A stretch of 64,000 bases of DNA, taken from positions 62,001 to 126,000 of the forward strand of contig NZ_MWQY01000006.1 in the NCBI RefSeq assembly GCF_002087085.1, in the 5' to 3' direction. Shown here in pieces: positions 9,181 to 28,467 of this stretch. Each line of letters starts with the position of its first letter. The stretch's first letter is position 1. The translations under genes and the position numbers were made by a program. The DNA is from Marispirochaeta aestuarii. Its GTDB lineage: Bacteria > Spirochaetota > Spirochaetia > JC444 > Marispirochaetaceae. The notes under the pieces were generated by a model. It did no database searches and was not told the origin of the DNA. It saw only the letters and a program-made list of their open reading frames with translations.

Positions 9181-9273
9181 ACTTCGATTCCTTGCACACA
9201 ATATTTTATCGGCACCTATACGAACTGAGATTTCCGTTACCTTTCCAGTATAAGTAATCGGCAGACAGATCGC

Positions 9274-9294
9274 ACAACTTTTTATAAAAGTTGT
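9274..9294. promoter_or_regulatory. 21-base AT-rich palindrome upstream of the HisKA_2 sensor gene
   Basis: ACAACTTTT-TAT-AAAAGTTGT has 9-base perfect arms. It lies in the divergent region, 32 bases before the ATG at 9327 and 93 bases upstream of the chemoreceptor. It is better placed as an operator than as a terminator because no gene ends there. Confidence 0.45.
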
Positions 9295-9326
9295 TTTAAT
9301 TTGTCTAAAGAAATACAATTAGAAGG

Positions 9327-11097: not shown

Positions 11098-11154
11098 ATG
11101 ATTTCCTTTACCTTGTTTGCAGATACTATACGGGAGGACGGGCAGAAATGCCAG

Positions 11155-11181
11155 AGGGGTCAGGCATAAAGCCGGACCCCT
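11155..11181 (-). terminator. Hairpin between the M24 gene and the SDR gene
   Basis: AGGGGTC at 11155-11161 pairs with GACCCCT at 11175-11181, and a further short GGC/GCC pairing closes a small loop. It starts a few bases after the M24 stop codon. There is no following T-run, so it is more likely a partial terminator or an mRNA-stabilising hairpin inside the operon. Confidence 0.45.
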
Positions 11182-11184
11182 GTC

Positions 11185-12324: not shown

Positions 12325-13013
12325 AGGCGTCCTATAAGGCGGACCGGCGCGCCGGAGGCGAACTCCCCCTGGACCTTCAGGGGCGCCGGGATCAGTTCGA
12401 AGCTTTTATCCAGGACCCGGGTAATCTCCCCGCCCACGTTCTCGATAATGTAGATTCCCCGTCCCAGCAGGAAGCGGTGGTTCCCGGCCCGGAAGGGCTG
12501 CTCAGTGTATTCAGTGCGCAGATCGATGTCGGGAGCATCGATTCCGATGAGGCGCACCCCTCTGTCCGCCGCCCATTGTGAAGCCCCCTCATCGAGAGTG
12601 CAGTATTCCTCGTAATAACGGGAGGGGTCGCTCAGAAAGAGGGGAGCCCGTCCGGTATAGACGATCAGGGCGTCCCCCGCCTCCAGGCTCAGATTGTTCT
12701 TTTCCAGCCGCGCCTGGAGTTGTTCCGCACTGATTCCCCGGGAAGGCGGGGTTTCAGGTCCGTAATGTTCCGAAAGGTCCAGGGCCACAGCCCGTCCGAT
12801 CAGTTCCTGCAGGGGAACCTGGTCGAGTCGCCGTCCGTCCCTGACCATGTGCCAGGGAGCATCGATGTGGGTCGCCGTGTGGAGGCTGAAGGTGGCGAAG
12901 GCATGCCTGCAGCCATGGCTTGCAAAGTGCTGAACATTTCGGAAGAAGGGAAACCCGAAGGGATGAAAACAGTCCTCGTCAAAGCCGTAACTCAGATCAT
13001 AGTAACTTGCCAT
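12321..13013 (-). CDS. Cyclase-family (kynurenine formamidase-like) metal hydrolase
   Basis: 230 residues of the Cyclase family (Pfam PF04199), zinc- or manganese-dependent amidohydrolases that include kynurenine formamidase and isatin hydrolase. The metal motif HxxTHxDxPxH is present as HTATHIDAPWHM (about residues 45-56). DALIVYTG and the later IGIDAPDID follow the family pattern. The gene begins directly after the stop of the permease gene and overlaps the M24 gene by 4 bases. It probably opens a lactam, lactone or formamide made from the imported compound. The substrate is unknown. Confidence 0.87.
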   Translation of the reverse strand: MASYYDLSYGFDEDCFHPFGFPFFRNVQHFASHGCRHAFATFSLHTATHIDAPWHMVRDGRRLDQVPLQELIGRAVALDLSEHYGPETPPSRGISAEQLQARLEKNNLSLEAGDALIVYTGRAPLFLSDPSRYYEEYCTLDEGASQWAADRGVRLIGIDAPDIDLRTEYTEQPFRAGNHRFLLGRGIYIIENVGGEITRVLDKSFELIPAPLKVQGEFASGAPVRLIGRL

Positions 13014-13988
13014 CTATTTTCGCCCCTTCCCGTGACCGGCGGCCAGAATTATGCCGACAATGACTACCCCGGTGACGATGTACCGGAGACTGGCACCGAA
13101 TCCGATGATATTCAGGAGGTTTACGATAAGGTACAACAGTACCGAAGCGCCGATGATTCCCTGCACGTTGGAATCGCCTCCGGCGATGCTGGTTCCGCCG
13201 AGGACGACCACGGCTATGGAGTTCAGCAGATACTCGTCACCCATCCCGAGGGTTGCCCCGCCGGAGAAAGCCGCCAGAAGAACACCGGTAATCCCCGCGA
13301 ACATGCCGCTCAGGGTGTAGGTGATGAGTTTCCGGTAATTGACCTTGACCCCCGCCAGCCAGGCGGCCTTGGTGTTCTGGCCGATAGCCTGAATGCCCCG
13401 GCCGTAGGCCGTACGGGACAGGAGCAGATGAACCGCGAAGGAGAGCAGCACCACCAGCAGAAAGAGAATCGGAACCTGCAGGATCTTTATGTTTACAAAG
13501 GTCTCCAGTCCCCTGGGAGGTTTGATAAGCATTCCCCGAAAGAATACAATAGCCAGGGTCCGGACAATAAAACTGGAGGCCAGGGTCGCGATCATGGGAG
13601 GAATCAGGGCAAAACGGATCAGTATGAAGTTGAAAGCCCCCACGGCTGAACCGGCGGCAATCCCCGCGAGGATTCCCATAAAGATGCCGCTGTCCATTCC
13701 CCCCATCACCTTCATGGCAAAGGACCCCGCCAGGGCAATGGTATAGGGAATCGAAAGATCGATATTCCCCGGGCCGTTGGTGATAACAAGCATCTGCCCC
13801 AGCCCCACCAGCACGAAGAAGGAGGCAAAGCTGATTGATGCAGCCAGAGTCTGGAAGGGGCTCCGGGAAACCATGGCAACCATCAGAAAAACGATGACCA
13901 CCCCGGTATAGGACCAGGCCCAGCGAATGGAAATGAAAGATTTAAAGAGTTCCCCGGGGGTTCTGTTGTTAACTGCAGTATCAGACAT
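13014..13988 (-). CDS. Ribose-type ABC transporter permease, second subunit
   Basis: 324 residues, BPD_transp_2 family (RbsC type), with about nine to ten membrane segments. Family marks include GPGNIDLSIPYTIALAG after the second segment, GIMAG-like small-residue helices, and the EAA-like cytoplasmic loop around YGRGIQAIGQNTKAAWLAGVKVNYRKL that contacts the ATPase. The last helices end in a short basic tail. It overlaps the upstream permease gene by 8 bases. It forms the inner-membrane channel for a pentose-, sugar-acid- or autoinducer-like ligand together with the gene at 13981. Confidence 0.92.
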   Translation of the reverse strand: MSDTAVNNRTPGELFKSFISIRWAWSYTGVVIVFLMVAMVSRSPFQTLAASISFASFFVLVGLGQMLVITNGPGNIDLSIPYTIALAGSFAMKVMGGMDSGIFMGILAGIAAGSAVGAFNFILIRFALIPPMIATLASSFIVRTLAIVFFRGMLIKPPRGLETFVNIKILQVPILFLLVVLLSFAVHLLLSRTAYGRGIQAIGQNTKAAWLAGVKVNYRKLITYTLSGMFAGITGVLLAAFSGGATLGMGDEYLLNSIAVVVLGGTSIAGGDSNVQGIIGASVLLYLIVNLLNIIGFGASLRYIVTGVVIVGIILAAGHGKGRK

Positions 13989-14952
13989 ATCGGACCTTCC
14001 CGCTTTTTTTCAGCTGGCTGTTGATGAACAGCACAGCGAGGATAATTATGCCCTGGGCGCCGATCTGCCAGTCCGGAGATATGCGCAGAAAGGTGAGCAG
14101 GGTTCCAACCAGGGTCATGGTACAGGCCCCCAGCACAACGCCCACGGCGGATACCGTTCCCCCGGCGAAGCTTCCGCCCCCCAGAACCACGCTGGCAACA
14201 GCAATAAGCGTATAGTTCCGGGCTATATTCGGGTCTGCGCTGGTAGTTATACCCGCCAGGGCAAAACCGCTCAGTATCCCGAAGAGGCCGACCATTCCGA
14301 ACACCGCCATCTGCAGCTTCAGCATGGAATGCCCGGACTGCTCGATCGCCTTTCTGTTGCCCCCCATTCCCCGAAGGAGAATTCCGAAACTGGACTTGAA
14401 GAGCAGCACGTGCAGCAGAATTGCCAGGATAACCAGAAAGAAAATCGGCATCGGAACCACAGGGGTTCTCATGTTCATGGCGCCGACCAGGAACTCAGGT
14501 ACGTTTCCCCCCGGATGAGGCTGGATCATTATCGCGAGCCCGGTCCATATGAAGGACATTCCGATGGTAACGACGATGGACTGCAGGTTCCGCAGATAGA
14601 GTACCGCACCGACCAGCATATATACGGCAATGATGCCGAAGAGCAGCAGGATTCCCAGCAGGGGTCTGGTGGGAAGGAGGGATCCGGCTATGCAGGTGAC
14701 CAGGCTCACCAGGTTTCCGATGGACAGATCGATCTCCGAGATCGTCATGGCGAACATCTGCGCTATCGTTGCCAGGGCTACGGGAATCGCCATATTGAAC
14801 AGCAGATTGAATCCGGTGTAGTTGATAACCCTCGGCCGCAGTACGAGAATCGGGACAAATACAATCAGTATAGACATCAGGGGCATGAGGACGTCCCGGG
14901 CGCGACCCTTGCGCCGCAGGCTCATTCTTTTTTCTCCCAGCTTGTTTTCCAT
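13981..14952 (-). CDS. Ribose-type ABC transporter permease, first subunit
   Basis: 323 residues, RbsC type, with about ten membrane segments. It has the family sequence MTISEIDLSIGNLVSLVTCIAGS and the coupling loop SSFGILLRGMGGNRKAIEQSG before a conserved helix, then VVLGGGSFAGGTVSAVGVVLG. It differs enough from the next permease to be a heterodimer partner and not a recent duplicate. The ATPase gene ends 20 bases upstream. The ATG at 14952 follows a weak GGAGA-type site inside the gap. Confidence 0.92.
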   Translation of the reverse strand: MENKLGEKRMSLRRKGRARDVLMPLMSILIVFVPILVLRPRVINYTGFNLLFNMAIPVALATIAQMFAMTISEIDLSIGNLVSLVTCIAGSLLPTRPLLGILLLFGIIAVYMLVGAVLYLRNLQSIVVTIGMSFIWTGLAIMIQPHPGGNVPEFLVGAMNMRTPVVPMPIFFLVILAILLHVLLFKSSFGILLRGMGGNRKAIEQSGHSMLKLQMAVFGMVGLFGILSGFALAGITTSADPNIARNYTLIAVASVVLGGGSFAGGTVSAVGVVLGACTMTLVGTLLTFLRISPDWQIGAQGIIILAVLFINSQLKKSGKVRYV

Positions 14953-14972
14953 ATACTCTCTTCTCTTATCTC

Positions 14973-16430
14973 TTAAAATGATGCTTTAAGAATATCTTCT
15001 TCGCTCGCTTCGGACGCGAGGAGCTCGGCGATGATCTTTCCGCCCTTGAAAACATACAGACGATCGCAGTACTGCAGTTCGTCCATCTCGGTGGTGTACC
15101 AGACGAAGCTCCTGCCTGCTTCCCGTTCCTTCAGAATGCGGCGGTAGATAACCTCCTTGGTCCCCACATCGACTCCCCGGGTCGGATCATCCATGAGTAC
15201 AATCTTTGCCGAGGACTCAAGACAGCGGGAAAAGATCGCCTTCTGCTGGTTTCCGCCGCTCAAACTCAGAATATTGTCTTCGATGGAACCGGCCTTGATA
15301 TCGATCTCGTCCCGCCATCGCCTGGCGATATTCTCTTCCCTGGCGGAGTCGATCAGAAACAGCTTCCGGACCTTGTTGTAGACCTGAACAGTGATATTCC
15401 TGGTTATGGACCAGATCGGAAAGACTCCGTCGGCCTGCCGGTCCCCGGGAAGAAAGGTAACCGGAGCGTGAACCTGGTAATCCGGGTTCTTCCGCCCGTC
15501 AAAAAGTTCTATCAGCAGAGCAGTCTGTCCATGGCCCGCAAGGCCGGTAAGTCCCACGATTTCGCCTTCATGGACCCTGAGTTTTACCTCTCCGTTCTGC
15601 TTCCGTGGTTCGATCACGAGCTTCTTTTCCGCTGCGCCCTGGTCTTTTTTCGAAGCGAGGGCGGTCTCCGCCGCGGATTCCTTGGCTATATCGGCCTTCG
15701 CCTCTCCCATAAGTTCAATAATGCTTTCCCGGCTCGAGGTCGCCGTCTCCTCCACTCCGACCTTGATACCGTCCTTCATTACGACGATCCGGTCCGTGGA
15801 AGCCAGGACCTCGTCAAGCAGATGGGATATATAGATTACACTCAGCTTCTTTTCCCGCAGGGTGTCCAGGTAATCGATCAGCTGCTGGGACCGTTTATGG
15901 TCCAGGGCACTTGTCGGTTCGTCCAGGATAACCAGCCGCAGAGGCTTGTCGGGGGCGGTAAAGGCCTTGGCAATCTCCACCATCTGGCGCTGTCCCAGGG
16001 TCAGACTGCTTACAACTGAATCGGGGTGAATACCGTGGTCGGGGAAAATCTCGTCCAGGGATGATATAATCATCTCCCGGGCCAGCTTTTTCCATCCAAA
16101 TCCGGATATATTGGGATGAAAGACCTTGATGTTTTCCGCCACTGTCAGGTTCGGGCAGAGACTCAGCTCCTGAAATACTACGCGGATACCCTGGCTGTTG
16201 GCACTGAATATATCGTATCCGGGGGGCTGAAGCTCTCCGTCAATATAGAGTTCCCCTTCCGTCGGCGGATAGGTTCCGGTCAGGATGTTCACCATGGTGG
16301 ATTTTCCCGCCCCGTTATGTCCGACAATACCAAGACACTCTCCCTCAAAAATTGACAGATCAACCTGATGGAGTGCCCGGGAACTCATGAAATATTTGCT
16401 TATGTTTTTCAGTTCAATGATGGTTTTCAT
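14973..16430 (-). CDS. Ribose-type ABC transporter ATP-binding protein (two NBDs)
   Basis: 485 residues, RbsA-like with tandem nucleotide-binding domains. The first has Walker A GHNGAGKST, signature LTLGQRQMVEIA and Walker B LVILDEPTSALD. The second has a degenerate Walker A (GLAGHGQTAL), as usual for this family, with LSGGNQQKAIFSR and Walker B IVLMDDPTRGVD. A Lys/Ala-rich linker (about 245-275) separates them, and the total is slightly shorter than RbsA (about 500). It energises import by the two permeases. It is separated from the upstream binding-protein gene by an 89-base gap that holds a strong hairpin. Confidence 0.93.
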   Translation of the reverse strand: MKTIIELKNISKYFMSSRALHQVDLSIFEGECLGIVGHNGAGKSTMVNILTGTYPPTEGELYIDGELQPPGYDIFSANSQGIRVVFQELSLCPNLTVAENIKVFHPNISGFGWKKLAREMIISSLDEIFPDHGIHPDSVVSSLTLGQRQMVEIAKAFTAPDKPLRLVILDEPTSALDHKRSQQLIDYLDTLREKKLSVIYISHLLDEVLASTDRIVVMKDGIKVGVEETATSSRESIIELMGEAKADIAKESAAETALASKKDQGAAEKKLVIEPRKQNGEVKLRVHEGEIVGLTGLAGHGQTALLIELFDGRKNPDYQVHAPVTFLPGDRQADGVFPIWSITRNITVQVYNKVRKLFLIDSAREENIARRWRDEIDIKAGSIEDNILSLSGGNQQKAIFSRCLESSAKIVLMDDPTRGVDVGTKEVIYRRILKEREAGRSFVWYTTEMDELQYCDRLYVFKGGKIIAELLASEASEEDILKASF

Positions 16431-16462
16431 TTTCGACCCATATCCCTCGTCAATTAATCAAG

Positions 16463-16489
16463 GGTCTCCTGCCTTAGGGGCAGGAGACC
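16463..16489 (-). terminator. Intra-operon hairpin after the binding-protein gene
   Basis: GGTCTCCTGCC (16463-16473) pairs perfectly with GGCAGGAGACC (16479-16489) around a five-base loop. It lies between the solute-binding protein stop (16520) and the ATPase start (16430) and lacks a T-run. Such hairpins usually protect or partly terminate the message so that the binding protein is made in excess. Confidence 0.65.
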
Positions 16490-16519
16490 GATACATGAAA
16501 TCAGCACTCCCTGTATTTA

Positions 16520-17581
16520 TTACATGGGAAGCGGATCGGCGGGAGGCGGGTCTCCGGCCTTCCAGTTCTTGATAAGTTCCTGTACCCATTCCTGGGGATA
16601 GATTATGGAAGCGACGCCGCCGGGCTCGGTATTCTCAAGATGGAAATCCAGACTCTCTTCGGTTACCGTAAGGGGGGGCAGAAGGATCTCTTTGGGAACA
16701 TCCGTACCGTTCAGAACCTCAACGGCGGTCCAGAAGGCGATGGTGGCCACACCGGGGGCGATACTAATGGAGATGGTCTCGTAGCCGCTATCCTCTTTCA
16801 TCTCTTTCCAGATGGTCATTTCATCATAGCGGTTGCCCATCATGACCATGGGAATCTTTTTACCCGCGGCTTCGAAGGCCTTAACGGCTCCGTAACCGTC
16901 TCCCCCCTGGGTGATGACCGCATCGACCTTGGACAGAGAAGGAAGAATACCCGCGACCTCCCGCTGGGCAACGGACTGGGTCCAGTTACCGTAAACCTCT
17001 CCGATAATTTTGAGCTTCGGATAGTTCTTCAGTGCCTCCATGGCACCTTCGTGGATAGCGTCGTTTACATAGGTTCCGGCGAGTCCCCGGATCTCGAGGA
17101 TGTCCGCGCTGTCCATACGATCAGCGATAAACTCGACCTGGGCCGCACCCATGTACTGGAAGTCGGTAACCAGGCGCCATGCCCGTTCTTCGGTTATAAC
17201 ATTGTCAAAGGATACAACCACAATTCCCGCGTCAAGGGCCTGCCGGACCGCTCCGTTCAGGGCCGTGGGAGACGCAGCGTTCAGTACGATGGCGTCATAT
17301 CCTTCCAGAATCAGGTTCTGGATCTGGGCGGCCTGTTCCGCCGCGGAACTTTCGTTGGTCGTAAATACCGGAGCTTCTTTCACTATTCCCTTGTCTATGG
17401 CGATCTTTGCGGCGGTTTCCCAGTCCTTGATCATGGTCTGGCGCCAGGAGTTTCCGGCATAATCGTTGCTCAGGGCAATCCGGTAACCTCCTTTCTCGCC
17501 TGCTCCTTCCTTCTGACCCTCCGCAAAGGTGCCCATCGCGAAGAGCGACAGAATCAGTACGACAGCAATAACTCGTTTCAT
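16520..17581 (-). CDS. Periplasmic sugar-type substrate-binding protein
   Basis: 353 residues from the ATG at 17581, which has GGAGG 7 bases upstream; a 69-residue extension into the promoter is rejected. A signal peptide (MKRVIAVVLILSLFAMGTFAEG) is followed by EGQKEG, a mature end common in spirochaetal binding proteins. The rest is a Peripla_BP_4 (RbsB-like) fold: RIALSNDYAGNSWRQTMIKDWE, LNAASPTALNGAVRQALDAGIVVVSFDN, and VDAVITQGGDGYGAVKAFEAAGK. It delivers ligand to the permeases. Ligand identity is unknown. It is the first gene of the catabolic operon and lies directly downstream of the yesM/yesN genes. Confidence 0.92.
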   Translation of the reverse strand: MKRVIAVVLILSLFAMGTFAEGQKEGAGEKGGYRIALSNDYAGNSWRQTMIKDWETAAKIAIDKGIVKEAPVFTTNESSAAEQAAQIQNLILEGYDAIVLNAASPTALNGAVRQALDAGIVVVSFDNVITEERAWRLVTDFQYMGAAQVEFIADRMDSADILEIRGLAGTYVNDAIHEGAMEALKNYPKLKIIGEVYGNWTQSVAQREVAGILPSLSKVDAVITQGGDGYGAVKAFEAAGKKIPMVMMGNRYDEMTIWKEMKEDSGYETISISIAPGVATIAFWTAVEVLNGTDVPKEILLPPLTVTEESLDFHLENTEPGGVASIIYPQEWVQELIKNWKAGDPPPADPLPM

Positions 17582-17646: not shown

Positions 17647-17686
17647 TTTCCATAGCAGAATGGAAACATTTGTGAATAACTGGAAA
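17647..17686. promoter_or_regulatory. Candidate AraC/YesN-type activator site
   Basis: TTTCCAT-AGCAGA-ATGGAAA (17647-17666) is a perfect inverted repeat over the -35 position. TGGAAA occurs again at 17681-17686, 20 bases after the TGGAAA at 17661, that is, about two helical turns. Direct half-sites with this spacing are typical of proteins with two AraC-type helix-turn-helices. The YesN regulator encoded immediately upstream is the obvious candidate. Confidence 0.5.
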
Positions 17687-17690
17687 TTTT

Positions 17691-19304
17691 TTAAGGTTTT
17701 CCCTTTTTCGGGGATCTGTTTCCCCGGGAATACGCGGACGGAGAGATTCCAGCCTGTTTTCGGAACACCCTGCTGAAGTAAAAGGCATCCGCGTAACCCA
17801 CAGCTTCCGCGACTTCGCCCACGCTGAGAAGGGGGTCCTTGTCCATCAGTTCCATGGCCTTCCGAATCCTGAAATCCGTCAGGTAGCTGATAATTGAAAC
17901 CCCGAGCTGCTTCTTGAAAACACCGCTTATATAACTGGGGGTAACCGAGATATGATCGGCAATCTTATCCAGACTGAGGGAGGCATCCCGATGGTTTCCT
18001 TCGATATAGGCTTTCGCCTTCTGAACGATCATCCGGGTTCTGGAACTGACATTTCCCCGGATGCGCTGGAATATCTGGGAGACGATCTTTTCAAGCCAGG
18101 CCTGCATCTGCGGCAGGGACTCCATGCTCTGCACCGCGGCAAGGGCATCGGAGCCGTCCCTGAACATGCTGGAAAGGCCGATGGAGTTTTCATCCAGGAA
18201 CTCAATCATAACCGACACGGCATCCATAAGCGCCATTTCGCAGTATTGCCGGCGGGGACGCTGAAGTCGGAGCTCCTCGAAGAGTTCATGTATAAGTTCT
18301 GTTATTTCATCTTCACTTCCGCTTCTCAGCAGAACCATCAGGGAGTTCCGGTCCACCGGTGACCGGTAGGAGCTGCTCTCCTTATTCCCGTCCTTTTCGG
18401 GCTGCCAGACGTAGACCCTGTCCTCACCACTGTAAAAGCGCTCTCCCAGGGCTTTTCCGGCGTGCAGGTAGGCCTCCCCGAGCTCTTCAGGAACAGAAGC
18501 CACCGACCCGATCCCCAGGGAACAGCGGAACCTGAGCTCCGTGGAAATGTTCCGGCGCAGGTGTCCGGCAGCCTGAAGGACGGATTCCCCGGGTTTCTTC
18601 TCTGGTTCTGCATTCAGGTTCCCGAGCAGTACCCAGCGATTCTTTTTCATACACACCAGTTCAAGGGCTTTGAAGGTATTCCGGATAAACGAATCAAGAA
18701 CCTGCTGGAGCATCTCCCGGGTAAGGGGAACCTCCCCCCTGGTCTCAATAATTACGGGCAGAATGTTCCGTGAATCTATCTCTATTCCAAACAGCCGAAA
18801 CCCGTTTGCAATGTCCCCGGGACTCAGACGCCCCGAGCGGTTCAGCAGGGCCCGCAGAAAGTCACCCCGGGGGTCTTCCTGCTGAACTCCGGTATCCCGC
18901 TGTCCCCGTCGATACAGGGATCGCTCCTCTTCCACAATTACCCTGCGGGCAGTCTCCAGGGAACTGCGGAGTTCCTCCGGATCTATGGGCTTGAGCAGAT
19001 AGTTCAGGACCCCGATGCGGATTGCCCGTCGGGCGTAGCTGAACTCCTCATAGCCCGTCAGTATGATGATCACCATCCTTGGATACAGGGTCTTCAGCCT
19101 GTCCGCAAGGTCAAGACCATTAATAAAAGGAATATTGATGTCCACAACCGCGAGACGGGGAGTATGCTCCTCGGCGAACTGAAGGGCCTCTTCACTGTTC
19201 TCCGCCTGGGCAACCACGGTGAACCCAAGCTCGTTCCAGTCCACGGAGCGCAGGATGAGACTGCGGATCAGGGCCTCATCGTCCACAATCATCACAGGTA
19301 TCAT
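17691..19304 (-). CDS. YesN-type response regulator with AraC DNA-binding domain
   Basis: 537 residues. The receiver domain (1-120) has DDE at 8-10, phospho-acceptor Asp55 in LAVVDINIPFINGLDLAD, ILTGYEEF, and the Lys in LNYLLKPIDPEEL. A long central region of about 300 residues is typical of YesN proteins. The AraC-type double helix-turn-helix (about 430-530) has LSLDKIADHISVTPSYISGVFKK and VGEVAEAVGYADAFYFSRVFRKQ, followed by AGISPSAYS. Its start overlaps the kinase stop by 4 bases. It ends 110 bases upstream of the ABC operon, whose promoter has AraC-like half-sites. It probably activates that operon in response to the extracellular sugar or sugar acid. Confidence 0.94.
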   Translation of the reverse strand: MIPVMIVDDEALIRSLILRSVDWNELGFTVVAQAENSEEALQFAEEHTPRLAVVDINIPFINGLDLADRLKTLYPRMVIIILTGYEEFSYARRAIRIGVLNYLLKPIDPEELRSSLETARRVIVEEERSLYRRGQRDTGVQQEDPRGDFLRALLNRSGRLSPGDIANGFRLFGIEIDSRNILPVIIETRGEVPLTREMLQQVLDSFIRNTFKALELVCMKKNRWVLLGNLNAEPEKKPGESVLQAAGHLRRNISTELRFRCSLGIGSVASVPEELGEAYLHAGKALGERFYSGEDRVYVWQPEKDGNKESSSYRSPVDRNSLMVLLRSGSEDEITELIHELFEELRLQRPRRQYCEMALMDAVSVMIEFLDENSIGLSSMFRDGSDALAAVQSMESLPQMQAWLEKIVSQIFQRIRGNVSSRTRMIVQKAKAYIEGNHRDASLSLDKIADHISVTPSYISGVFKKQLGVSIISYLTDFRIRKAMELMDKDPLLSVGEVAEAVGYADAFYFSRVFRKQAGISPSAYSRGNRSPKKGKP

Positions 19305-21118
19305 GCAGGATCCTCCTGAAGATCCCGGCTTTCAAAGGGCACGGTGATTGTCACCCTGGTCCACTCTCCAAAGCTGCTCTCGATGGACAGCCCGAAGTCA
19401 TTGCCGAAACACTGTTTGAGCCTCTGGTCCACACTGGAGAGGCCGAAACCGCCCAGCCCTTCCCGTTCCCGCTGGCTGAGGACCTCCCTGATTCGATCCG
19501 CTTTGATACCCGCACCGTTGTCTTCCACCCGCAGGCGGACACATTCCTTCTCCCGTATGCCGGTGACGGAAATAAAGCCCACCCGGCGGGATGCTTTAAG
19601 CCCGTGATATATCGAATTCTCCACCAGGGGCTGCAGGGAGAGTTTTACAATCCTCTGATCAAGGATCTCGTTATCCACATCAACCTCAAAATTGAGCTTC
19701 TCCTGGTAGCGGGTCTTCTGAATAATCAGGTAATGCCGGATCGTCTGAACCTCTTCCCGGATGGAGATTACCGGACGGCCGTTGCTCAGGACGCCCCGGT
19801 AAAAGAGGGAGACCGATTTTGCCAGATTATAGGCATCATCGTTGCGTCCCAGCTGAGTCAGGGAGGAGATACTCTCCAGGGTATTGTACAGAAAATGGGG
19901 ATTGATCTGGGACTGCAGGGCCATGAGTTCCAGTTCCCGTTCCCGCTGGTGATGAATATAGACCCGGTCCATGAGGTCCGACATTCTGCGGAGCATATGG
20001 TTGAAGGCCCCGGTCAGTTCGCCTATCTCATCCCGCCGGTCCTCCTCAAGCCGGATGGAAAGATCCCCGGAAGCGGCATCGCTCATGGAATCCGACAGGG
20101 AGACGATGGGCTTCGATATTCCCCGGGCGATCAGAAAAGCGAAGGCCAGCTCCAGACCGACCCCCAGGGCTCCGATGATGTATACCAGCCGGGTAAAACG
20201 CAGCCCGAAGGCCAGGAGTTCCGTCAGGGGGACTATACCGATGATGGTCCAGTTGAGCCTGTCTATCCGCCGGGACAGTACCAGGAGGTCCCCCTCATCG
20301 GTCCGCTGGATTCTGCCCTGCTGATAGCCCTCCCCGATCCAGGACAGGTAGGAATCGTTCAGAAGGTCCGCAAAGGGCCCCCGGAACCTCATCTCCGGAT
20401 AGATCAGGGAACCGCTGTTATCCACCACCATGAAGCGTCCCGTGCGTCCGTAGTCCAGATGGCTGTACAGGGAGGAAAATATGGAATCGCTGACGCTCAT
20501 CTGGAGTATGCCCAGGATTTCACCGCTTTCTTCACGGACAATGCTGCGCAGCATGGTGAGTCCCACAATCCCCTTGTTCATCCCCGAGTAACCGTGTTTT
20601 CCCAGATCCAGCCAGATATTCCGGCCGCTGTTCAGGGTGATCAGGTCCACCATCTCCCGGGGCAGCAACGGCGAAGTGGAAAAGCTGTCGTCCGAGACGC
20701 TTCCGACCCCTACCCGGACCCCTTCGCTGGTATACAAGGTCAGACCGTTGATAACGTTTCGCAGATAGGTGATCTTCTGCAGGGCGGATCGCACCAGAAA
20801 ATAGTGGTCCGTGTTTTCTCCCGGGTCTGTATCCTGCAGCTTGCTCAGCACAGCCTGAACAGTCTCATCGTGGGAGACCGTGGCCCCGGCCTCCTCTATG
20901 CTGTTAAGAACACCGTTCAGGCTCTGGATAATGATATCCATGCTCTGTTTTGTTGTTTCCGAGGTTCTCTGGATCAGCATGTCCGAGGCAACCTTGTTGG
21001 CCATATATACGGTAACACCGATCAGAAGGATTATAATGAGAAAATTGGGCAGATAGATCTTTTTGCTGATCGACAGGTCCCGGTACCAGCCGGAAAGACC
21101 ACTGAATACGCGCTTCAC
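19301..21118 (-). CDS. YesM-type sensor histidine kinase
   Basis: About 605 residues if started at the GTG at 21118. The open frame extends to 21250, but that would overlap the upstream gene by 86 bases; the GTG lacks a strong ribosome site, so the start is uncertain. A membrane helix near 17-38 and a second near 300 enclose an extracytoplasmic sensor of about 260 residues (Cache-like size). HAMP follows (ARGISKPIVSLSDSM and LSIRLEEDRRDEIGEL). The His_kinase domain has the typical LQSQINPHFLYNTLESISS. The ATP-binding site has LQPLVENSIYHGL and VEDNGAGI. It phosphorylates the YesN-type regulator downstream. The tethered DctP homologue upstream may present ligand to its sensor. Confidence 0.9.
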   Translation of the reverse strand: MKRVFSGLSGWYRDLSISKKIYLPNFLIIILLIGVTVYMANKVASDMLIQRTSETTKQSMDIIIQSLNGVLNSIEEAGATVSHDETVQAVLSKLQDTDPGENTDHYFLVRSALQKITYLRNVINGLTLYTSEGVRVGVGSVSDDSFSTSPLLPREMVDLITLNSGRNIWLDLGKHGYSGMNKGIVGLTMLRSIVREESGEILGILQMSVSDSIFSSLYSHLDYGRTGRFMVVDNSGSLIYPEMRFRGPFADLLNDSYLSWIGEGYQQGRIQRTDEGDLLVLSRRIDRLNWTIIGIVPLTELLAFGLRFTRLVYIIGALGVGLELAFAFLIARGISKPIVSLSDSMSDAASGDLSIRLEEDRRDEIGELTGAFNHMLRRMSDLMDRVYIHHQRERELELMALQSQINPHFLYNTLESISSLTQLGRNDDAYNLAKSVSLFYRGVLSNGRPVISIREEVQTIRHYLIIQKTRYQEKLNFEVDVDNEILDQRIVKLSLQPLVENSIYHGLKASRRVGFISVTGIREKECVRLRVEDNGAGIKADRIREVLSQREREGLGGFGLSSVDQRLKQCFGNDFGLSIESSFGEWTRVTITVPFESRDLQEDPA

Positions 21119-21164
21119 AGGCTTATCATAGCATAGAAGGAGAAGGGTGTGACTCTGAAAAAAA

Positions 21165-21983
21165 CTACTCCCCCTGCCTGTAAAGAGAAAGCAGTTCCTC
21201 TTCGCTTCGCTCCACTTCAGGACTCGCCCCGGCGGCAAAGTTTTCCGCATACTCCCTCAAAAGGCGCCTGTATGCAGGATCCAGGGACTCATAAAAATCA
21301 GTATTCACCATTAATCGGTACCGGGGAATATGGTACTCCGGGACAAGCAGCTCCTCCGTCCAGCGGTCCCAGTCCTGGTGATACCACTCAAAGATATCCA
21401 GATCGATATAGGCGAAACGACCGTTCCGGGCTTCCCGCTGCAGCACGGTTTCGGAGAGAACAAGAGTTTCAATTCCTGCCTGAAGGGCGGGTATAACCCG
21501 GTCCTCCCGTAAAGCCAGTACATTGGAATTCTCCGGGAGGGGATCCTTGATTTTCCATACATGCCTGGCGGGACCTGCCGTCGTTGCCAGGGTGAAACTC
21601 TTTTGGAATTCCCCATCGCCGCGAATCAGACAGATTTCCAGGGTTCCTTTCTCGAGACCTCTCAGAAGCTGATCCTCAGGTCCGAGACCGCCGTCGGGGT
21701 AGAGTTCCACAATCAGTTGAAGACGTGTGGCGGTTTCCAGGGGAGCGGCAAAATCCTGACTGAGACTCTGGTGCAGAGGATGATAACGCGGGAGTCCGTG
21801 GGCAACCTTGATTACCCTGAAGTCCTGGTCTCCCCCAAGGTCCCGATGAATCCGGCCTCCCTCCACTATCGAGGTTCCGCCGGGCAGAGGAAGATAGGGC
21901 AGAAAAACCAGAAAGGCAAGGCTGTATATCAGAAGTATCACCATGATACCCAGCAGTATGGGAACAAGGAGGCCGGATTTCAT
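21165..21983 (-). CDS. Membrane-tethered, shortened DctP-type solute-binding protein
   Basis: 272 residues. An N-terminal hydrophobic helix (about 5-30) without a clear cleavage site should hold the protein in the inner membrane. The soluble part begins like TRAP binding proteins: IKVAHGLPRYHPLHQSLSQDF, then VELYPDGGLGPEDQLLRGLEKGTLEICLI. It ends like them with MVNTDFYESLDPAYRRLLREYAENF. The middle is about 50-70 residues shorter than a normal DctP (about 320), and I cannot find the region that carries the conserved carboxylate-binding Arg. No transporter subunits accompany it; it is framed by an AraC regulator and a YesM kinase. A role as the ligand-sensing accessory of these regulators is inferred. 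Confidence 0.78.
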   Translation of the reverse strand: MKSGLLVPILLGIMVILLIYSLAFLVFLPYLPLPGGTSIVEGGRIHRDLGGDQDFRVIKVAHGLPRYHPLHQSLSQDFAAPLETATRLQLIVELYPDGGLGPEDQLLRGLEKGTLEICLIRGDGEFQKSFTLATTAGPARHVWKIKDPLPENSNVLALREDRVIPALQAGIETLVLSETVLQREARNGRFAYIDLDIFEWYHQDWDRWTEELLVPEYHIPRYRLMVNTDFYESLDPAYRRLLREYAENFAAGASPEVERSEEELLSLYRQGE

Positions 21984-24184
21984 GACAGGACCTCCCTTTT
22001 AGCAGCCTCGAGCTTCCTGTATTTGCCGGGAGGGATCCTTTCATACTTTTTAAACACCCGGATAAATGTCTGAAGGCTGGAGAAACCAGTCCTGAGGGCC
22101 ACCTCGCCCACCGGGAGATTCGGGTCACGCAGGTATTCCCTGGCCCTCTCCACACGGCTGCGATTCAGGTAGTCAATATAGTTTGTCCCGAAGTATTCCT
22201 TGAAGATACGACTTACATAACTCGGACTCAAACCCACGGCGTCACCGATATCTATAAGAGATACTTCCGGTTTATCCAGGTTCCGGTCAAGATAATCGGC
22301 TATGCGCTGTGCGTTGGGGGCTGTTCTGTCCGTCTTTTCCGCCTGAATCAAAGCGGCGGTATCCCTGCAGACAGACAGGAGCCATTCACGCAGCTCCGCC
22401 AGGGTCTCTTTTTCCTGATACTCCCTGTACAGGGAAGCTTGTGCAGACGGTGACGACTCCCCGGAAAAGGGCATATGCTTTTCCCGAATCTCCATAAGAG
22501 AGTAAACGCTTTCCTCAAGGATCCGCCGGCAGAGGCCGGCCTCCATTCCGGGGCACAGTGTAAACTGCTGAAACAGACTGTCCAGAAGAAACTCCAGATC
22601 ACCGCTGTTTCCGGCTTTGACACAGGCAATCAGATTCCGTTCGGCTTCCATTGCAGGTGAAAGCTTCTGCGCGAGTCCCCGGGCATCGTCATACTGATGC
22701 ACCGAGGCGTATCCGGAAAGAAATCTCTGCTCCGCCGCTCCGCGGGCCTGCCGGTACGACAGGTGCAGCATGCCCGGACTCTCGCAGCTTCTGCCGATTC
22801 CGCAGCTCACGGAAAAGGGAAAATCCCTGCGCACCAGGGCCACAATATCCCCGGCACGATCAAGACAGAAATCATCGTCACAATTCTTAAGAAGACAACA
22901 GAGGGTGTCTGCCTCCGTCAGTCCGCTCATCCACAGGGCTTCCGGGCGGAACTGCGCCCTGATCCGTTTATGCATGGCATCCTTTACAAGGCGCAGGGAT
23001 ACCGGGTCCCGGGAATGCCGGAGTTTTTGATATCCGTCGATCCGGAAAACGAGGGCCCGGAGGCTTCCCTCCGGAACGGATAATCCACAGAGATGCAGCA
23101 TATTCCGAAGATCCGCTTCTTCGCTTTCCCGGTTGAATACCAGCCGGTACAGGGTATGCTCCTGTATAAGCGGTCTGGCGTATTCCAGGATCGCCGAGGA
23201 ATTCCCCAGCTGTTCCAGGGGATAGTAGAGCCGCCTGGAAACCCGAAGACCGATCAGCAGCAGAAGGAGAAGGGTCAGTATTATTATAATAAGATTCGCA
23301 ATCAGCATTCCCCGGGCAAAAGCGATCAGTTCATCCACATCGGATTCACAGGTAAAAACCCAGCGGGTGTGGGGGACCGTATAAAAAGAGACAATACGCC
23401 TGGTTTTTTCCTTTTCATGAACAAAGAAGCCCCTGTCTCTGGAAGCTGCGGTTCGGAAAACAGCCTCGTTACCAACGAAGTTACCGATTCGCTCCCCTTC
23501 CGGATGTTCCAGGATGTATCCGTCCGCATTCATAACCTGCAGGGAAGCAGGGGTTCCGCCTCCGGTGCTGAAATTTGAGAAGAGGACAGCCGTGTTCAAA
23601 TTGATTGCAAGTCCTGCGGTTTTATCCCAGGTTCCCACGGGCAGATTGCTCAAGATTGTAATAAGCGAAGAGTTCTTGCCGTTTGAATCCGTCACCATCC
23701 GGGTGGGCAGCCTGTTCCGGCCAAGGAAATGACTGTTGAACTGATCGATCCAGGAGGTATCATAAAACACATTGACCCGGGAAACTCCGCTGTTGGAAGC
23801 GAGGATGATTCCCTCCCCGGCGGAATAGAGATAAATCGAGGATATGAAATCATAGGAGCCGACAAAGGATGCAAAGATGTCTGTTATACGGGCATGCAGC
23901 TGGTAGTCCTCCAGGGAAGGATCAATTACAAAGGAAAGGACATCCGGATTACGGCCGATGACAGAGATGAGGTTCTCCAGTCCCCGGATTTTTTCGTCCA
24001 CCCCCAGGGCATGGGAAACAAGGGAATCATTCACGGACAGAAGGAAGTTCTCCCGGGCATGCCGGTAGGTCAGATAATTGAAGATCAGGTTCAACACGAG
24101 AACCGGGATGACCGCGAAAGACAGGACAGATATGAAAATCCTGGAAAAACGGGAAGGATGAGACAGAGATGAGTCAATCAGCAT
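21980..24184 (-). CDS. Membrane-bound AraC-family regulator with extracytoplasmic sensor
   Basis: 734 residues from the ATG at 24184, which has AGGA 8 bases upstream; a GTG at 24199 is the alternative. Two membrane helices (about 14-36 and 290-312) enclose a Cache-like sensor of about 250 residues. A long cytoplasmic region follows. The C-terminal AraC double helix-turn-helix (about 635-730) includes VSLIDIGDAVGLSPSYVSRIFKE and VGEVALRTGFSSLQTFIRVFKKY. No receiver domain or kinase is present, so this is a one-component transmembrane regulator. It overlaps the DctP-like gene by 4 bases. It is divergent from the TRAP operon, which it probably activates; three 10-base-spaced repeats lie between them. 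Confidence 0.9.
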   Translation of the reverse strand: MLIDSSLSHPSRFSRIFISVLSFAVIPVLVLNLIFNYLTYRHARENFLLSVNDSLVSHALGVDEKIRGLENLISVIGRNPDVLSFVIDPSLEDYQLHARITDIFASFVGSYDFISSIYLYSAGEGIILASNSGVSRVNVFYDTSWIDQFNSHFLGRNRLPTRMVTDSNGKNSSLITILSNLPVGTWDKTAGLAINLNTAVLFSNFSTGGGTPASLQVMNADGYILEHPEGERIGNFVGNEAVFRTAASRDRGFFVHEKEKTRRIVSFYTVPHTRWVFTCESDVDELIAFARGMLIANLIIIILTLLLLLLIGLRVSRRLYYPLEQLGNSSAILEYARPLIQEHTLYRLVFNRESEEADLRNMLHLCGLSVPEGSLRALVFRIDGYQKLRHSRDPVSLRLVKDAMHKRIRAQFRPEALWMSGLTEADTLCCLLKNCDDDFCLDRAGDIVALVRRDFPFSVSCGIGRSCESPGMLHLSYRQARGAAEQRFLSGYASVHQYDDARGLAQKLSPAMEAERNLIACVKAGNSGDLEFLLDSLFQQFTLCPGMEAGLCRRILEESVYSLMEIREKHMPFSGESSPSAQASLYREYQEKETLAELREWLLSVCRDTAALIQAEKTDRTAPNAQRIADYLDRNLDKPEVSLIDIGDAVGLSPSYVSRIFKEYFGTNYIDYLNRSRVERAREYLRDPNLPVGEVALRTGFSSLQTFIRVFKKYERIPPGKYRKLEAAKREVLS

Positions 24185-24527
24185 CGATAATTCCTGCACT
24201 GTGCTTTGTGATTATCATCGGACACCGGTAAAGGCCTGTATTTTTGTTACAGGCAGGGGTACGGGAAATCCCTACACCGCTGGGTGCTGCAAAAAGTGCA
24301 GTTTTCAGGATGTCCGACAGAAAACCCTATTATACAGAAAAAACAGACCTTGTCATTAAGTGTCATTTTTTGTGATTTCCTGCGGATAGTTAACAATATT
24401 TTACTCCGTTGCACCAAATTTATTTTTAAAAAAACTGACCGTTTACAGCTTCTTTTCCGGGCTCCTAAAATCAGAGTCAGACTTCCCCGAGAAAGGACGT
24501 CATCATCTTTAACGGAGGTGTTTCGTA
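24185..24527. other. Divergent intergenic region (343 bases) between the AraC regulator and the TRAP operon
   Basis: No coding frame of note is present. The region is AT-rich between about 24300 and 24470, unlike its surroundings. It contains a set of three TGTSATT repeats (24351-24377) and the GGAGG before dctP. I see no clear consensus -35/-10 pair for dctP, which suits activator-dependent transcription. Confidence 0.7.
24351..24377 (+). promoter_or_regulatory. Three direct repeats with exact 10-base period, candidate AraC operator
   Basis: TGTCATT at 24351, TGTCATT at 24361 and TGTGATT at 24371 lie on one face of the helix, about 150 bases upstream of dctP. Tandem half-sites at helical spacing fit binding by AraC-type proteins, here the divergent regulator at 21980-24184 (inference). 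Confidence 0.5.
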
Positions 24528-25517
24528 ATGAAACGTGCTCTTATTGTACTTACTGTCATTGCTGTCCTCACAACAGGCATTTTTGCCGAGGGCTCTTCCG
24601 AAGGCGCAGCCGATTCCTACACCCTGCGGCTTTCTCATGTTCTTCCAACTGACCACCAGAACCACAAGACTGCGGTAAAGTTTGCCGAACTGGTCAAGGA
24701 AAAGACCGGCGGAAAAGTGAACATCGAAATTTTCCCCGCCGCCCAGCTCGGAAACGAGAAGGAGATTACCGATTCCGTGGCCATGGGTACCCTGGATTTT
24801 GCCCTCTGCGGATTTGGTGAGGTAACCAAGCGTTTTCCGGTATCCGGCATCTTCGACGGGCCCTTTGTATTCCGGGACCGCGAACACCTGGCCCAGGTTT
24901 ACACGAGCGATATCTTCTGGGACATCATGGCGGACATGGAAGAGGTTGGAATACAGATGGTCTCCCCCGGATACTACGGAACCCGTCACGTGACAACCAC
25001 CGATACGCTGGTCAAAACACCCGCCGACCTGAACGGTCTCAAGCTCCGCTGTCCCGACCAGCCCATGTTCGTGGCGACCACGAAAGCTATGGGTGCCACC
25101 CCGACTCCCATGGCCTTTTCCGAGGTCTACCTTGCCCTTCAGCAGGGCGTCGCAGACGGTCAGGAGAACCCGGCGGCAGCCATTACCTCCATGAAGTTCT
25201 ACGAAGTCCAGAAATACCTGGTAAAGACAGGCCACATCATCTACGGAAACCACATCTTCGGCAGCACCCGGACCCTGTCCAAGCTGCCCCAGGAGCTTCA
25301 GGCAGCAATCGCCGAAGCGGGAAAGGAAGTTTCCGGCTGGTGGATCGAACAATCCTTCGCTGACGAGGACGTTCTGCTCAAGGGCCTTGAGGACAAGGGA
25401 ATGACCATTGTTGAACCGGACAAGGAAGCCTTTGTTTCCGCTGCCCAGTTTATCTACGATGAGTATGAATCAAAATGGGGCGAAGGACTGCTGGAAAAGC
25501 TCAGAGCCATTCAGTAA
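24528..25517 (+). CDS. dctP: TRAP transporter solute-binding protein DctP
   Basis: 329 residues. A signal peptide (MKRALIVLTVIAVLTTGIFAEG) is followed by EGSSEGAADS. The DctP fold is full length: LRLSHVLPTDHQNHKTAVKFAEL, VNIEIFPAAQLGNEKEITDSVAMGTLDFALC, the substrate-contacting LNGLKLRCPDQPMF with its Arg, GVADGQENPAA, and FYEVQKYLVKTGH. It binds a C4-dicarboxylate, sugar acid or similar carboxylate in the periplasm. AACGGAGG lies upstream at a good distance. It is first in the dctPQM-dehydrogenase operon and is followed by a large hairpin. Confidence 0.95.
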   Translation: MKRALIVLTVIAVLTTGIFAEGSSEGAADSYTLRLSHVLPTDHQNHKTAVKFAELVKEKTGGKVNIEIFPAAQLGNEKEITDSVAMGTLDFALCGFGEVTKRFPVSGIFDGPFVFRDREHLAQVYTSDIFWDIMADMEEVGIQMVSPGYYGTRHVTTTDTLVKTPADLNGLKLRCPDQPMFVATTKAMGATPTPMAFSEVYLALQQGVADGQENPAAAITSMKFYEVQKYLVKTGHIIYGNHIFGSTRTLSKLPQELQAAIAEAGKEVSGWWIEQSFADEDVLLKGLEDKGMTIVEPDKEAFVSAAQFIYDEYESKWGEGLLEKLRAIQ

Positions 25518-25541
25518 CAGAAAAGCGGTAGAATATTACAT

Positions 25542-25593
25542 GCGGCAGGCAGCCGTCCTCCCGGAGGGGACGGCCACCGGCCGTTTATGCCGC
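25542..25593 (+). terminator. Intra-operon structured RNA between dctP and dctQ
   Basis: An outer stem GCGGCA (25542-25547) / TGCCGC (25588-25593) encloses a very strong inner hairpin, GCCGTCC (25552-25558) / GGACGGC (25568-25574). The dctQ Shine-Dalgarno starts within 6 bases of the 3' arm. No T-run follows. This is typical of message-stabilising or attenuating structures after binding-protein genes. Confidence 0.6.
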
Positions 25594-25609
25594 CTTACAG
25601 GGAGATTGT

Positions 25610-26155
25610 ATGTTTAACAAAACCAGGGGATATCTGGCCTCCTTGGAAACCATATTTCTGATAAGCTGCCTGGGAGTAATGGGAATAGTGCTCTTTGCGC
25701 AGGTTGTAACCAGATATGTCTTTCAGACGCCCCTTGTATGGAGCGAAGAGGCCGCCCGATACCTTCACGTATGGATTGCCCTTTTCGGCATCCACTTTGG
25801 ACTGCGTCAGAATGCCCACATCCGGGTCACCTTTTTTTACGACCGTATGCCGGGAAAAATAAAGGGTCTCGTCCGTGTTTTCTCGGATCTTGTCATCCTT
25901 GCCACCATCGGCGTCTACCTTCCCGGTTCCGTCATTTTTATACAGGACCAGGCGACAATCGTTTCCTCCGCCATGGAGGTCAATATGGGCCTGGTGTACA
26001 TTCCATCTTTCATCGGTTTTTTCGTGGCATTCCTCTATTTTCTGGTGCAGACCCTTCAGTCCGTCCACCTTGTATTCAGCGGGCATCCTGAGGATGTCCC
26101 CGCCCTGGAAGAGACGCCTGCAACCATTGTCCAGGGAGGTCAGGACCAATGCTGA
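25610..26155 (+). CDS. dctQ: TRAP transporter small permease DctQ
   Basis: 181 residues with four membrane helices, the usual DctQ layout. Family marks include VVTRYVFQTPLVWSEEAARYLHVWIALFG and the following GLRQNAHIRVTFF. It forms the membrane complex with DctM and uses the sodium gradient. AGGGAG precedes the ATG. Its stop overlaps the dctM start by 7 bases. Confidence 0.94.
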   Translation: MFNKTRGYLASLETIFLISCLGVMGIVLFAQVVTRYVFQTPLVWSEEAARYLHVWIALFGIHFGLRQNAHIRVTFFYDRMPGKIKGLVRVFSDLVILATIGVYLPGSVIFIQDQATIVSSAMEVNMGLVYIPSFIGFFVAFLYFLVQTLQSVHLVFSGHPEDVPALEETPATIVQGGQDQC

Positions 26156-27423
26156 TTCTCTTCGGAATCTTTTTCCTTCTCCTCATCGCGGGAGTACCCA
26201 TAGCTTTCTGTCTTTTTTCCAGTTCCATAATTTACATGCTGATTTACGATCTTCCCATCCAGATGGCCGCTGCGAAACTCGTTGCCGGCCCGGATTCGTT
26301 TCCCCTTCTGGCCATCGCCTTTTTTGTTCTCGCCGGGGCAATCATGAACTCCGGAGGGATCACAAAGCGAATCTTTTCCTTTGCGGAACACCTGGTGGGA
26401 CACCTGACCGGAGGCCTGGGGCATGCGAACGTACTGGCCTCCATCATCTTTTCCGGCATGTCAGGTTCAGCAGCAGCCGATGTGGGAGGCCTGGGTGCAA
26501 TCGAACTTCAGGCCATGCGGGAATCCGGCTACAGTGAAGACTTCAGCCTGGCGGTAACCGGAGGCTCCTCCATTATCGGACCGATTATTCCTCCCAGTAT
26601 TCCCGCAGTCGTCTTCGGCGTCGCTTCGGGGGTATCCATCGGACGACTCTTCGTGGCGGGGATTATTCCCGGGTTCCTGATGGCCGCAGCCATGTCCGTT
26701 CTGATCTATTTTCAGTGCCGCGGCTACGATCATCTGAAACGCAAACGTGCCGGCATCGGTGAGATCGCCCGGGCTTTCAAGGTCTCCTTTTTCCCCCTCC
26801 TTACCCCGGTAATCATCATGGGGGGGATAATCGGGGGAGTATTCACCCCCACGGAAGCAGCAATAATAGCAGTATTTTATGCCCTGATCCTCGGTTTCGC
26901 CTATAAGGCAATAAGCCTCAGGGACCTGCCGCGCTTCCTTGTGGAGACCCTCAACACGACCATCGGAATCCTCTTTATTATCGCCTCCGCCAGCCTCTTT
27001 GCCTGGGTGCTGACCATATCCCAGTTTCCCCAGAACTTTGCCCTTACCTTTATGGGGCTCGTGAGCAATAAATACGTGGCCCTTATTCTGCTTAACCTAT
27101 TCCTCCTGATTGTCGGCTGCTTCATGGAGACGACCCCGGCGCAGATGATCCTGGTCCCCATACTCCTGCCCATCTTTGTCTCCCTCGGAGTAGATCCGGT
27201 ACACTTCGGTATCATCATGATTCTAAACCTTATGATCGGCCTGATGACACCACCCCTGGGACTGGTTCTGTATGTCTTATCCAGTGTCTCCAAAGTTCCC
27301 ATTGAAAGACTTTCGAAAACCGTATTACCTTATGTTATAGTTATAGGGATAGTTCTACTTTTCGTTACCTATATTCCGCAGATCGTTCTGTTCCTGCCGA
27401 ATCTGATTTACGGTCAGGGCTAA
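26149..27423 (+). CDS. dctM: TRAP transporter large permease DctM
   Basis: 424 residues with about 11-12 membrane segments. DctM family marks are MSGSAAADVGGLGAIELQAM, GGSSIIGPIIPPSIPAVVFG, and GVFTPTEAAIIAVFYALILG, followed near the end by MILNLMIGLMTPPLGLVLYV. It is the transport channel that takes ligand from DctP. Length is standard. The dehydrogenase gene follows 21 bases later. Confidence 0.95.
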   Translation: MLILFGIFFLLLIAGVPIAFCLFSSSIIYMLIYDLPIQMAAAKLVAGPDSFPLLAIAFFVLAGAIMNSGGITKRIFSFAEHLVGHLTGGLGHANVLASIIFSGMSGSAAADVGGLGAIELQAMRESGYSEDFSLAVTGGSSIIGPIIPPSIPAVVFGVASGVSIGRLFVAGIIPGFLMAAAMSVLIYFQCRGYDHLKRKRAGIGEIARAFKVSFFPLLTPVIIMGGIIGGVFTPTEAAIIAVFYALILGFAYKAISLRDLPRFLVETLNTTIGILFIIASASLFAWVLTISQFPQNFALTFMGLVSNKYVALILLNLFLLIVGCFMETTPAQMILVPILLPIFVSLGVDPVHFGIIMILNLMIGLMTPPLGLVLYVLSSVSKVPIERLSKTVLPYVIVIGIVLLFVTYIPQIVLFLPNLIYGQG

Positions 27424-27444
27424 ACGAAAGAGAGGAGATTACTG

Positions 27445-28467
27445 ATGTTACAAACACGACTGCCAGAAGCATATACCGTCGAATACCGGGACGTTCCGGT
27501 ACCGGAAATCGGTCCGGAGGAGGTGCTGATAAAGGTCAAGCGCTTCGGTATCTGCGGGTCGGATATCCAGGTCTATCACGGACAGCACAAGTACATGACC
27601 TTCCCCGTGGTCCAGGGACACGAAGCCGCGGGTACCCTGGAGAAGATCGGCGACAAGGTATCCGGGCTCAAAGTCGGACAGGCCGTTACCGTGCAGCCCC
27701 AGATTTTCTGCGGGGTCTGCCAGCCCTGTAAGTCCGGGCATCCCAACGTCTGCCAGAACCTGAGGGTCTACGGTGTACACACCGACGGACTGGGCCAGGA
27801 GTACTTTGCAGTCCCGGCAGAAAAGATCATACCCCTGCCCGAGGGCTGCTCTTTTGACGACGGCGCACTGATAGAGCCAATTACCGTAGGCGTGGGGGCC
27901 GTCCGGAGATGCGGCGATGTCAAGGACAGGAATATCTGCATTCTCGGAGCAGGACCCATCGGCAATTTTACCGCCCAGGTCGCCCAGGCAAAGGGCGCAC
28001 AGGTCATGGTAACAGACATCAATCAGAAAAAGCTCGATCTCGCCGCTTCCATGGGAATAAAGAACACCATCAACACGGAAAACAGGGATCTCAAGACCTG
28101 CATCGCCGATGTGTTCGGACCCGCCGGGGCGGACATAATCATCGACTGCGCCGGCGCCCCGGCAAGCCTGACCTCCGCGATCAAAAGCGCCCGGCCTGCA
28201 TCGAAAATCGTCATTGTGGCGAACTTCAAGGTTCCGGTGGAGGTGGAGATACCCCTGATCCAGCGCCAGCAGATAGACGTTCTGGGAGTAATGATGTACA
28301 TCAAGGAGGATTTCTTTACCGCCGTGGACCTGGTCAGCCAGGGAAAAGTAACAACGGAGGGAATCATCTCCGAGTATTTTGATATCAGCAAGCTGAAAGA
28401 GGCCTACGAATACATCGATGCCAACCGGCTGGATGTAAACAAGGTAATGATGACCTTCGGGGAATAG
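27445..28467 (+). CDS. Zinc-dependent MDR dehydrogenase (sorbitol/L-idonate type)
   Basis: 340 residues of the zinc-containing medium-chain dehydrogenase family. Catalytic zinc ligands are in GICGSD (Cys near 38), GHEAAG (His near 62) and the Glu of ALIEPITVG. The structural zinc site is CGVCQPCKSGHPNVC. The NAD-binding motif is ILGAGPIGNF. The Asp in VTDINQKKL favours NAD over NADP. As last gene of the TRAP operon it should oxidise the imported compound or its product: a polyol, aldonate or 3-hydroxy sugar acid. L-idonate or L-gulonate 5-dehydrogenase activity is my best guess; the family call is firm and the substrate is not. Confidence 0.9.
   Translation: MLQTRLPEAYTVEYRDVPVPEIGPEEVLIKVKRFGICGSDIQVYHGQHKYMTFPVVQGHEAAGTLEKIGDKVSGLKVGQAVTVQPQIFCGVCQPCKSGHPNVCQNLRVYGVHTDGLGQEYFAVPAEKIIPLPEGCSFDDGALIEPITVGVGAVRRCGDVKDRNICILGAGPIGNFTAQVAQAKGAQVMVTDINQKKLDLAASMGIKNTINTENRDLKTCIADVFGPAGADIIIDCAGAPASLTSAIKSARPASKIVIVANFKVPVEVEIPLIQRQQIDVLGVMMYIKEDFFTAVDLVSQGKVTTEGIISEYFDISKLKEAYEYIDANRLDVNKVMMTFGE

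Follow-up and report, generated by a model that had tools for sequence, protein, structure and literature searches.

Two regulatory modules probably joined in one gene string between a TRAP and an ABC transporter operon of Marispirochaeta aestuarii

In M. aestuarii, four regulatory genes lie in a row between a TRAP transporter operon and an Rbs-type ABC transporter cassette. Our analysis of the surrounding stretch of 64,000 nucleotides (hereafter the window) leads us to propose, with a probability of roughly 0.6, that these genes constitute two modules joined end to end, one in which a membrane AraC regulator and a tethered binding protein (DctPs) would serve the TRAP operon, and another in which a YesM/YesN pair would serve the ABC cassette. 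The genes, in window coordinates, are the following:

24528..28467, plus strand: TRAP operon DctP-DctQ-DctM with a zinc dehydrogenase (ADH) gene, the presumed AraC target
21980..24184, minus strand: AraC gene, 734 aa from the ATG at 24184, a transmembrane one-component regulator with an orthologue in G445, a genome of another family
21165..21983, minus strand: DctPs gene, a tethered, reduced TRAP-type (DctP family) binding protein of 272 aa
19301..21118, minus strand: yesM, a YesM-type sensor histidine kinase with a GTG start
17691..19304, minus strand: yesN, a YesN-type response regulator (Response_reg, GGDEF_2, HTH_18)
10330..17581, minus strand: Rbs-type ABC cassette with cyclase, M24-peptidase-like and SDR genes, the presumed YesN target

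A preliminary description of this DNA had given the order AraC, DctP-like, YesM, YesN on the minus strand, with four-base overlaps at both ends of the chain and with the TRAP and ABC operons on either side; order, strand, domains, overlaps and position were all confirmed. The araC and DctPs genes overlap by an ATGA at 21980-21983 and yesM and yesN by another at 19301-19304, while DctPs and yesM do not overlap and are separated by a gap of 46 bp (21119-21164). In G002, which belongs to the same genus, the whole stretch is found in the same order (SDR, ABC cassette, four regulators, TRAP, ADH), with the same flanks, both overlaps kept and 75-86% protein identity. The genome of a third genus member, G001, which is fragmented and has 12% contamination, gave no match to DctPs, to the AraC profile or to RbsB. 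Within the window, the cyclase (PF04199), M24-peptidase-like and gluconate 5-dehydrogenase-like genes (10330-13013) come after the ABC genes; a gene for a MASE11 and HisKA_2/HWE kinase with no obvious ATPase domain match (9327-10346) and one of chemoreceptor type (7309-9318) are arranged head to head.

AraC has two transmembrane helices (16-34 and 293-311) and, according to Pfam, a weak dCache match (dCache_1, below its curated cut-off), GGDEF_2 and HTH_18 (E=1e-22), with no Response_reg; it thus combines in one chain an extracellular sensor between two membrane helices and a C-terminal AraC helix-turn-helix, without a receiver. YesM carries dCache, HAMP, His_kinase (PF06580) and HATPase domains and is encoded beside a regulator with Response_reg and an AraC helix-turn-helix, as in a two-component system. 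A profile comparison detected no relation between the extracellular sensor domains of AraC and YesM, and the AraC sensor matched that of a TRAP-adjacent AraC paralogue at locus L033. Unrelated sensor sequences are no proof of different ligands.

The third component, DctPs, has a single N-terminal transmembrane helix, no lipobox, and a match to the Pfam family DctP (PF03480) of 42.8 bits, against a cut-off of 23.4, that covers residues 61-120 only; the protein is thus DctP-like and tethered, as had been described, but reduced. In a profile alignment with full TRAP proteins, residues 50-123 and about 226-250 were matched, and about 40 residues of lobe II together with the C-terminal part were unmatched. 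Going by established TRAP structures, we take the matched parts to be lobe I and the missing ones to be lobe II, so that, as judged from the alignment, DctPs appears to retain its anchor and lobe I and to have lost much of lobe II. Because of this loss, ligand sensing by DctPs is doubtful. In the window and G002, R140 lines up with the RH motif and is a candidate for the conserved arginine that meets the substrate carboxylate, but the corresponding residue of the G445 homologue is not an arginine; an AlphaFold model made without an alignment reached a mean pLDDT of 39.7.

Such a reduced protein could be what is left of a transport binding protein that is decaying and has no role any more, an idea to which the shortened lobe II and the fast evolution of its remnant lend some substance (residues 124-190, the least constrained part, with an omega of 0.36-0.52 between the window and G002). 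Nevertheless, omega for the whole gene was 0.20, indicative of purifying selection, and fell to 0.08 in lobe I and 0.11 in the anchor; moreover, the open frame and the overlap are kept in both species and a homologue is retained in G445. We therefore regard decay as very unlikely, and DctPs appears from its sequence to be a binding protein that is kept though reduced, and a probable co-sensor.

A profile of the sensor half of AraC, for which the sequences of the window, of G002 and of the L033 paralogue beside TRAP genes were used, gave one strong match beyond the genus, in G445, a genome that surfaced in this profile search only. There, an AraC gene overlaps that of a 349-aa DctPs homologue with a TM anchor; next come the orthologous TRAP genes and ADH (70% identity to the window for DctP, 83% for DctM and 57% for ADH), and no YesM/YesN genes are found among them. 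Two transketolase halves come after ADH. The window AraC was by far the best match of the G445 AraC among the regulators compared, and the two DctPs proteins were reciprocal best matches, albeit with a modest margin (45-50 bits vs 42 for an ordinary TRAP protein). The G445 genome holds no close relative of YesM (at best 31-37% identity over part of the protein) or of RbsB (27%); these matches are generic, which implies that G445 lacks the YesM/YesN-ABC half as a unit. The G445 pair (L085:3779-8449) and a CUT1-type ABC operon that includes a sulfatase gene point away from each other, so that here too the pair lies between TRAP and ABC genes.

The preliminary description had called for a search for the four-gene order and its neighbours. 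This order is conserved in G002 and only half of it is present in G445; when 393 genomes of the phylum were queried at strict cut-offs with AraC, YesM, DctP and RbsB, the locus did not turn up a second time, and DctP and RbsB had only relatives of 41-46% identity with different neighbours. Scans of GTDB contigs with DctPs and the AraC sensor returned nothing, a weak negative given that the method needs short exact peptides.

The intergenic regions contain the following promoter-like and candidate operator sites:

24442..24471, plus strand: promoter-like site of the TRAP operon, TTTACA-N18-TAAAAT
24389..24403, plus strand: GTTAACAATATTTTA, candidate core of the AraC operator ahead of the TRAP operon, with conserved counterparts in G002 and G445
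24329..24356, minus strand: araC-dctPs promoter-like site, ATGACA-N16-TATAAT (11/12), conserved in G002
21125..21153, minus strand: yesM promoter-like site with a TG-extended -10 (TATGAT), also in G002
17659..17690, minus strand: conserved direct repeat with 20-bp spacing and TTTCCA boxes, a candidate YesN site upstream of the ABC operon

The preliminary description took the genes of the string to be co-transcribed. The site in the 46-bp gap, common to both species, means that a transcript of all four genes is not assured, and YesM/YesN may be a separate transcription unit. Since promoter-like sites in the region occur at chance count, it is only the presence of this one in both species that supports it. 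It ends 6 nt before the yesM GTG, and a leaderless transcript would possibly follow. The GTG start of yesM has no clear Shine-Dalgarno sequence.

On the TRAP side, the motif GTTAACAATNNTTTA was found 53, 53 and 54 bp before the TTTACA of the TRAP promoters of the window, G002 and G445, respectively. The candidate operator of the window matched that of G445 at 14/15 positions, a score reached by 28/4000 dinucleotide shuffles; because several comparisons were made, the p-value is moderate when taken by itself, and the shared spacing adds weight to it. All nine occurrences of the motif in 0.97 Mb of DNA are explained by overlapping copies of these three loci. We presume, from this candidate operator with its conserved spacing, that AraC controls the TRAP promoter from the membrane. 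The motif is absent from the ABC promoter, no copy was found between the G445 AraC and its divergent ABC genes, and a search for an operator common to the TRAP and ABC promoters gave nothing above shuffle level. The conserved repeat of the ABC promoter (shuffle fractions of 0.08 and 0.02) has a 20-bp spacing close to the 21-bp periodicity of AraC-family sites (PMC3870299). In the TRAP promoter region, a direct repeat did not exceed chance.

These results bear on the earlier interpretation, according to which AraC and YesM sense a single ligand by way of one shared antenna, DctPs, balancing two uptake routes. Its basis stands, as the four genes are strung together between both transport operons in two species that agree in gene order and overlaps, and a tethered co-sensor is probable. 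The shared antenna itself was not borne out and now seems improbable to us: the two sensor domains are unrelated by profile comparison, the promoters have no common site above shuffle level, and the G445 pair without YesM/YesN reveals that the halves are separable in evolution. The sensor, operator and G445 results remove the positive reasons for a shared ligand, not its possibility.

A somewhat stronger competitor, though still unlikely, is that DctPs is the co-sensor of YesM, with the AraC gene merely preceding it. Three-component systems of a binding protein, a YesM/LytS-type kinase and a YesN-type regulator have been described, as in the CuaD-CuaS-CuaR system of Ruminiclostridium cellulolyticum, where the binding protein is a co-sensor for the kinase (PMC10384115), and DctPs lies immediately ahead of yesM, ending 46 bp before it. 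Three further loci of the same genome (L035:6218-10640, L036:7110-11198 and L041:7141-11101) combine a YesM/YesN pair with neighbouring Rbs-type ABC genes; in all three, the kinase or regulator gene adjoins that of a Peripla_BP_4 protein, anchored by a transmembrane helix in L035 and L041, as predicted from sequence, and lipoprotein-like in L036. Yet the ABC system next to yesN also uses a Peripla_BP_4 protein and not a TRAP-type one, DctPs overlaps araC but is separated from yesM by a gap with a promoter-like site, and its sole homologue outside the genus accompanies AraC and TRAP genes, without YesM. At L035, L036 and L041, as in the L099 case described below, the extra binding protein belongs to the family used by the neighbouring transporter, a rule that would place the TRAP-type DctPs on the TRAP side. 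At L037, YesM-YesN lies directly ahead of a TRAP operon.

Further support for an AraC partnership comes from L099:9048-12870 in genome G020, where the gene of a membrane AraC shares 8 bp with that of a second SBP_bac_1 lipoprotein. This lipoprotein has 45% identity to the transport binding protein encoded immediately upstream; by its sequence this is an independent case of AraC with a duplicated binding protein. Together with the G445 pair, the candidate operator confined to the TRAP side, the L033-related AraC sensor and the recurrence of YesM/YesN with Rbs-type genes, this case makes the two-module arrangement the most likely one on the genomic evidence. In the first module, the transmembrane AraC and its own tethered, TRAP-derived DctPs, encoded by overlapping genes, would make contact through the extracellular Cache-type domain of AraC; DctPs would relay the state of the TRAP substrate or of the transporter, and AraC would then activate, rather than repress, the divergent TRAP-dehydrogenase operon from the candidate site at 24389. 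In the second, a YesM/YesN phosphorelay would likewise activate rather than repress the downstream Rbs-type ABC cassette, with YesN acting probably from the repeat at 17659-17690. Against this arrangement, the AraC-DctPs pair occurs outside the genus in one genome only and the margin of DctPs homology is modest; DctPs adjoins YesM too in the window and may contact both regulators; the loss of lobe II makes its ligand sensing doubtful; and the p-value of the operator match was obtained in one comparison among several.

Like TfoS, AraC unites in one protein an extracellular sensor between two membrane helices and a cytoplasmic AraC DNA-binding domain, a layout shared by YesS/RhgR. The yes locus of Bacillus subtilis has YesM/YesN together with the membrane AraC protein YesS, and the premise of the preliminary description that membrane AraC regulators and YesM/YesN pairs are separate solutions needs care in view of it. 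To our knowledge, no dedicated tethered binding protein accompanies transmembrane AraC regulators such as TfoS and YesS/RhgR, and a literature search, which covered few subscription papers, found no described binding protein coupled to a membrane AraC regulator. DctB of B. subtilis is a DctP-family protein. The account of its DctB-DctS-DctR system presents this accessory extracytoplasmic protein as a co-receptor in C4-dicarboxylate sensing (PMC6978683), a role resembling the one proposed for DctPs, although the partners named there are a histidine kinase and the transporter DctA and here a one-component AraC regulator is proposed. As in CuaD-CuaS-CuaR (PMC10384115), a dedicated, non-transport binding protein gene stands beside those of a YesM/LytS-type kinase and a YesN-type regulator near a transporter operon; in contrast to CuaD, DctPs is TRAP-type and reduced, its gene overlaps that of a membrane AraC, and its homologue elsewhere occurs without a kinase or response regulator. 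In Vibrio cholerae, the chitin-binding protein CBP switches ChiS, a regulator that binds DNA while remaining in the membrane (PMC11856585). The same combination is proposed here from genes, but ChiS is a noncanonical hybrid kinase instead of a Cache protein of the AraC family, and CBP does not belong to the TRAP type.

Sensor kinases, and ChiS as one membrane protein that binds DNA, are already known to be switched by binding proteins; what makes this locus of interest is the probable coupling of a dedicated binding protein to a transmembrane AraC, with a second case in L099. A tentative generalization is that the group has a recurring design in which a transmembrane AraC is paired with a dedicated duplicate of the binding protein of the adjacent transporter, one of TRAP type here and in G445 and of SBP_bac_1 type in L099, and that in this genus little more than an anchored lobe I may be left of the partner, which would signal by contact with regulator or transporter instead of by closing on a ligand. 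If true, the coupling of AraC and a binding protein would extend the co-sensor idea to a large and little-studied family of regulators, for which AraC-DctPs offers a simple two-gene unit to test. Furthermore, the locus illustrates how two regulatory modules may come to lie in one string of genes and yet need not respond to a common signal.
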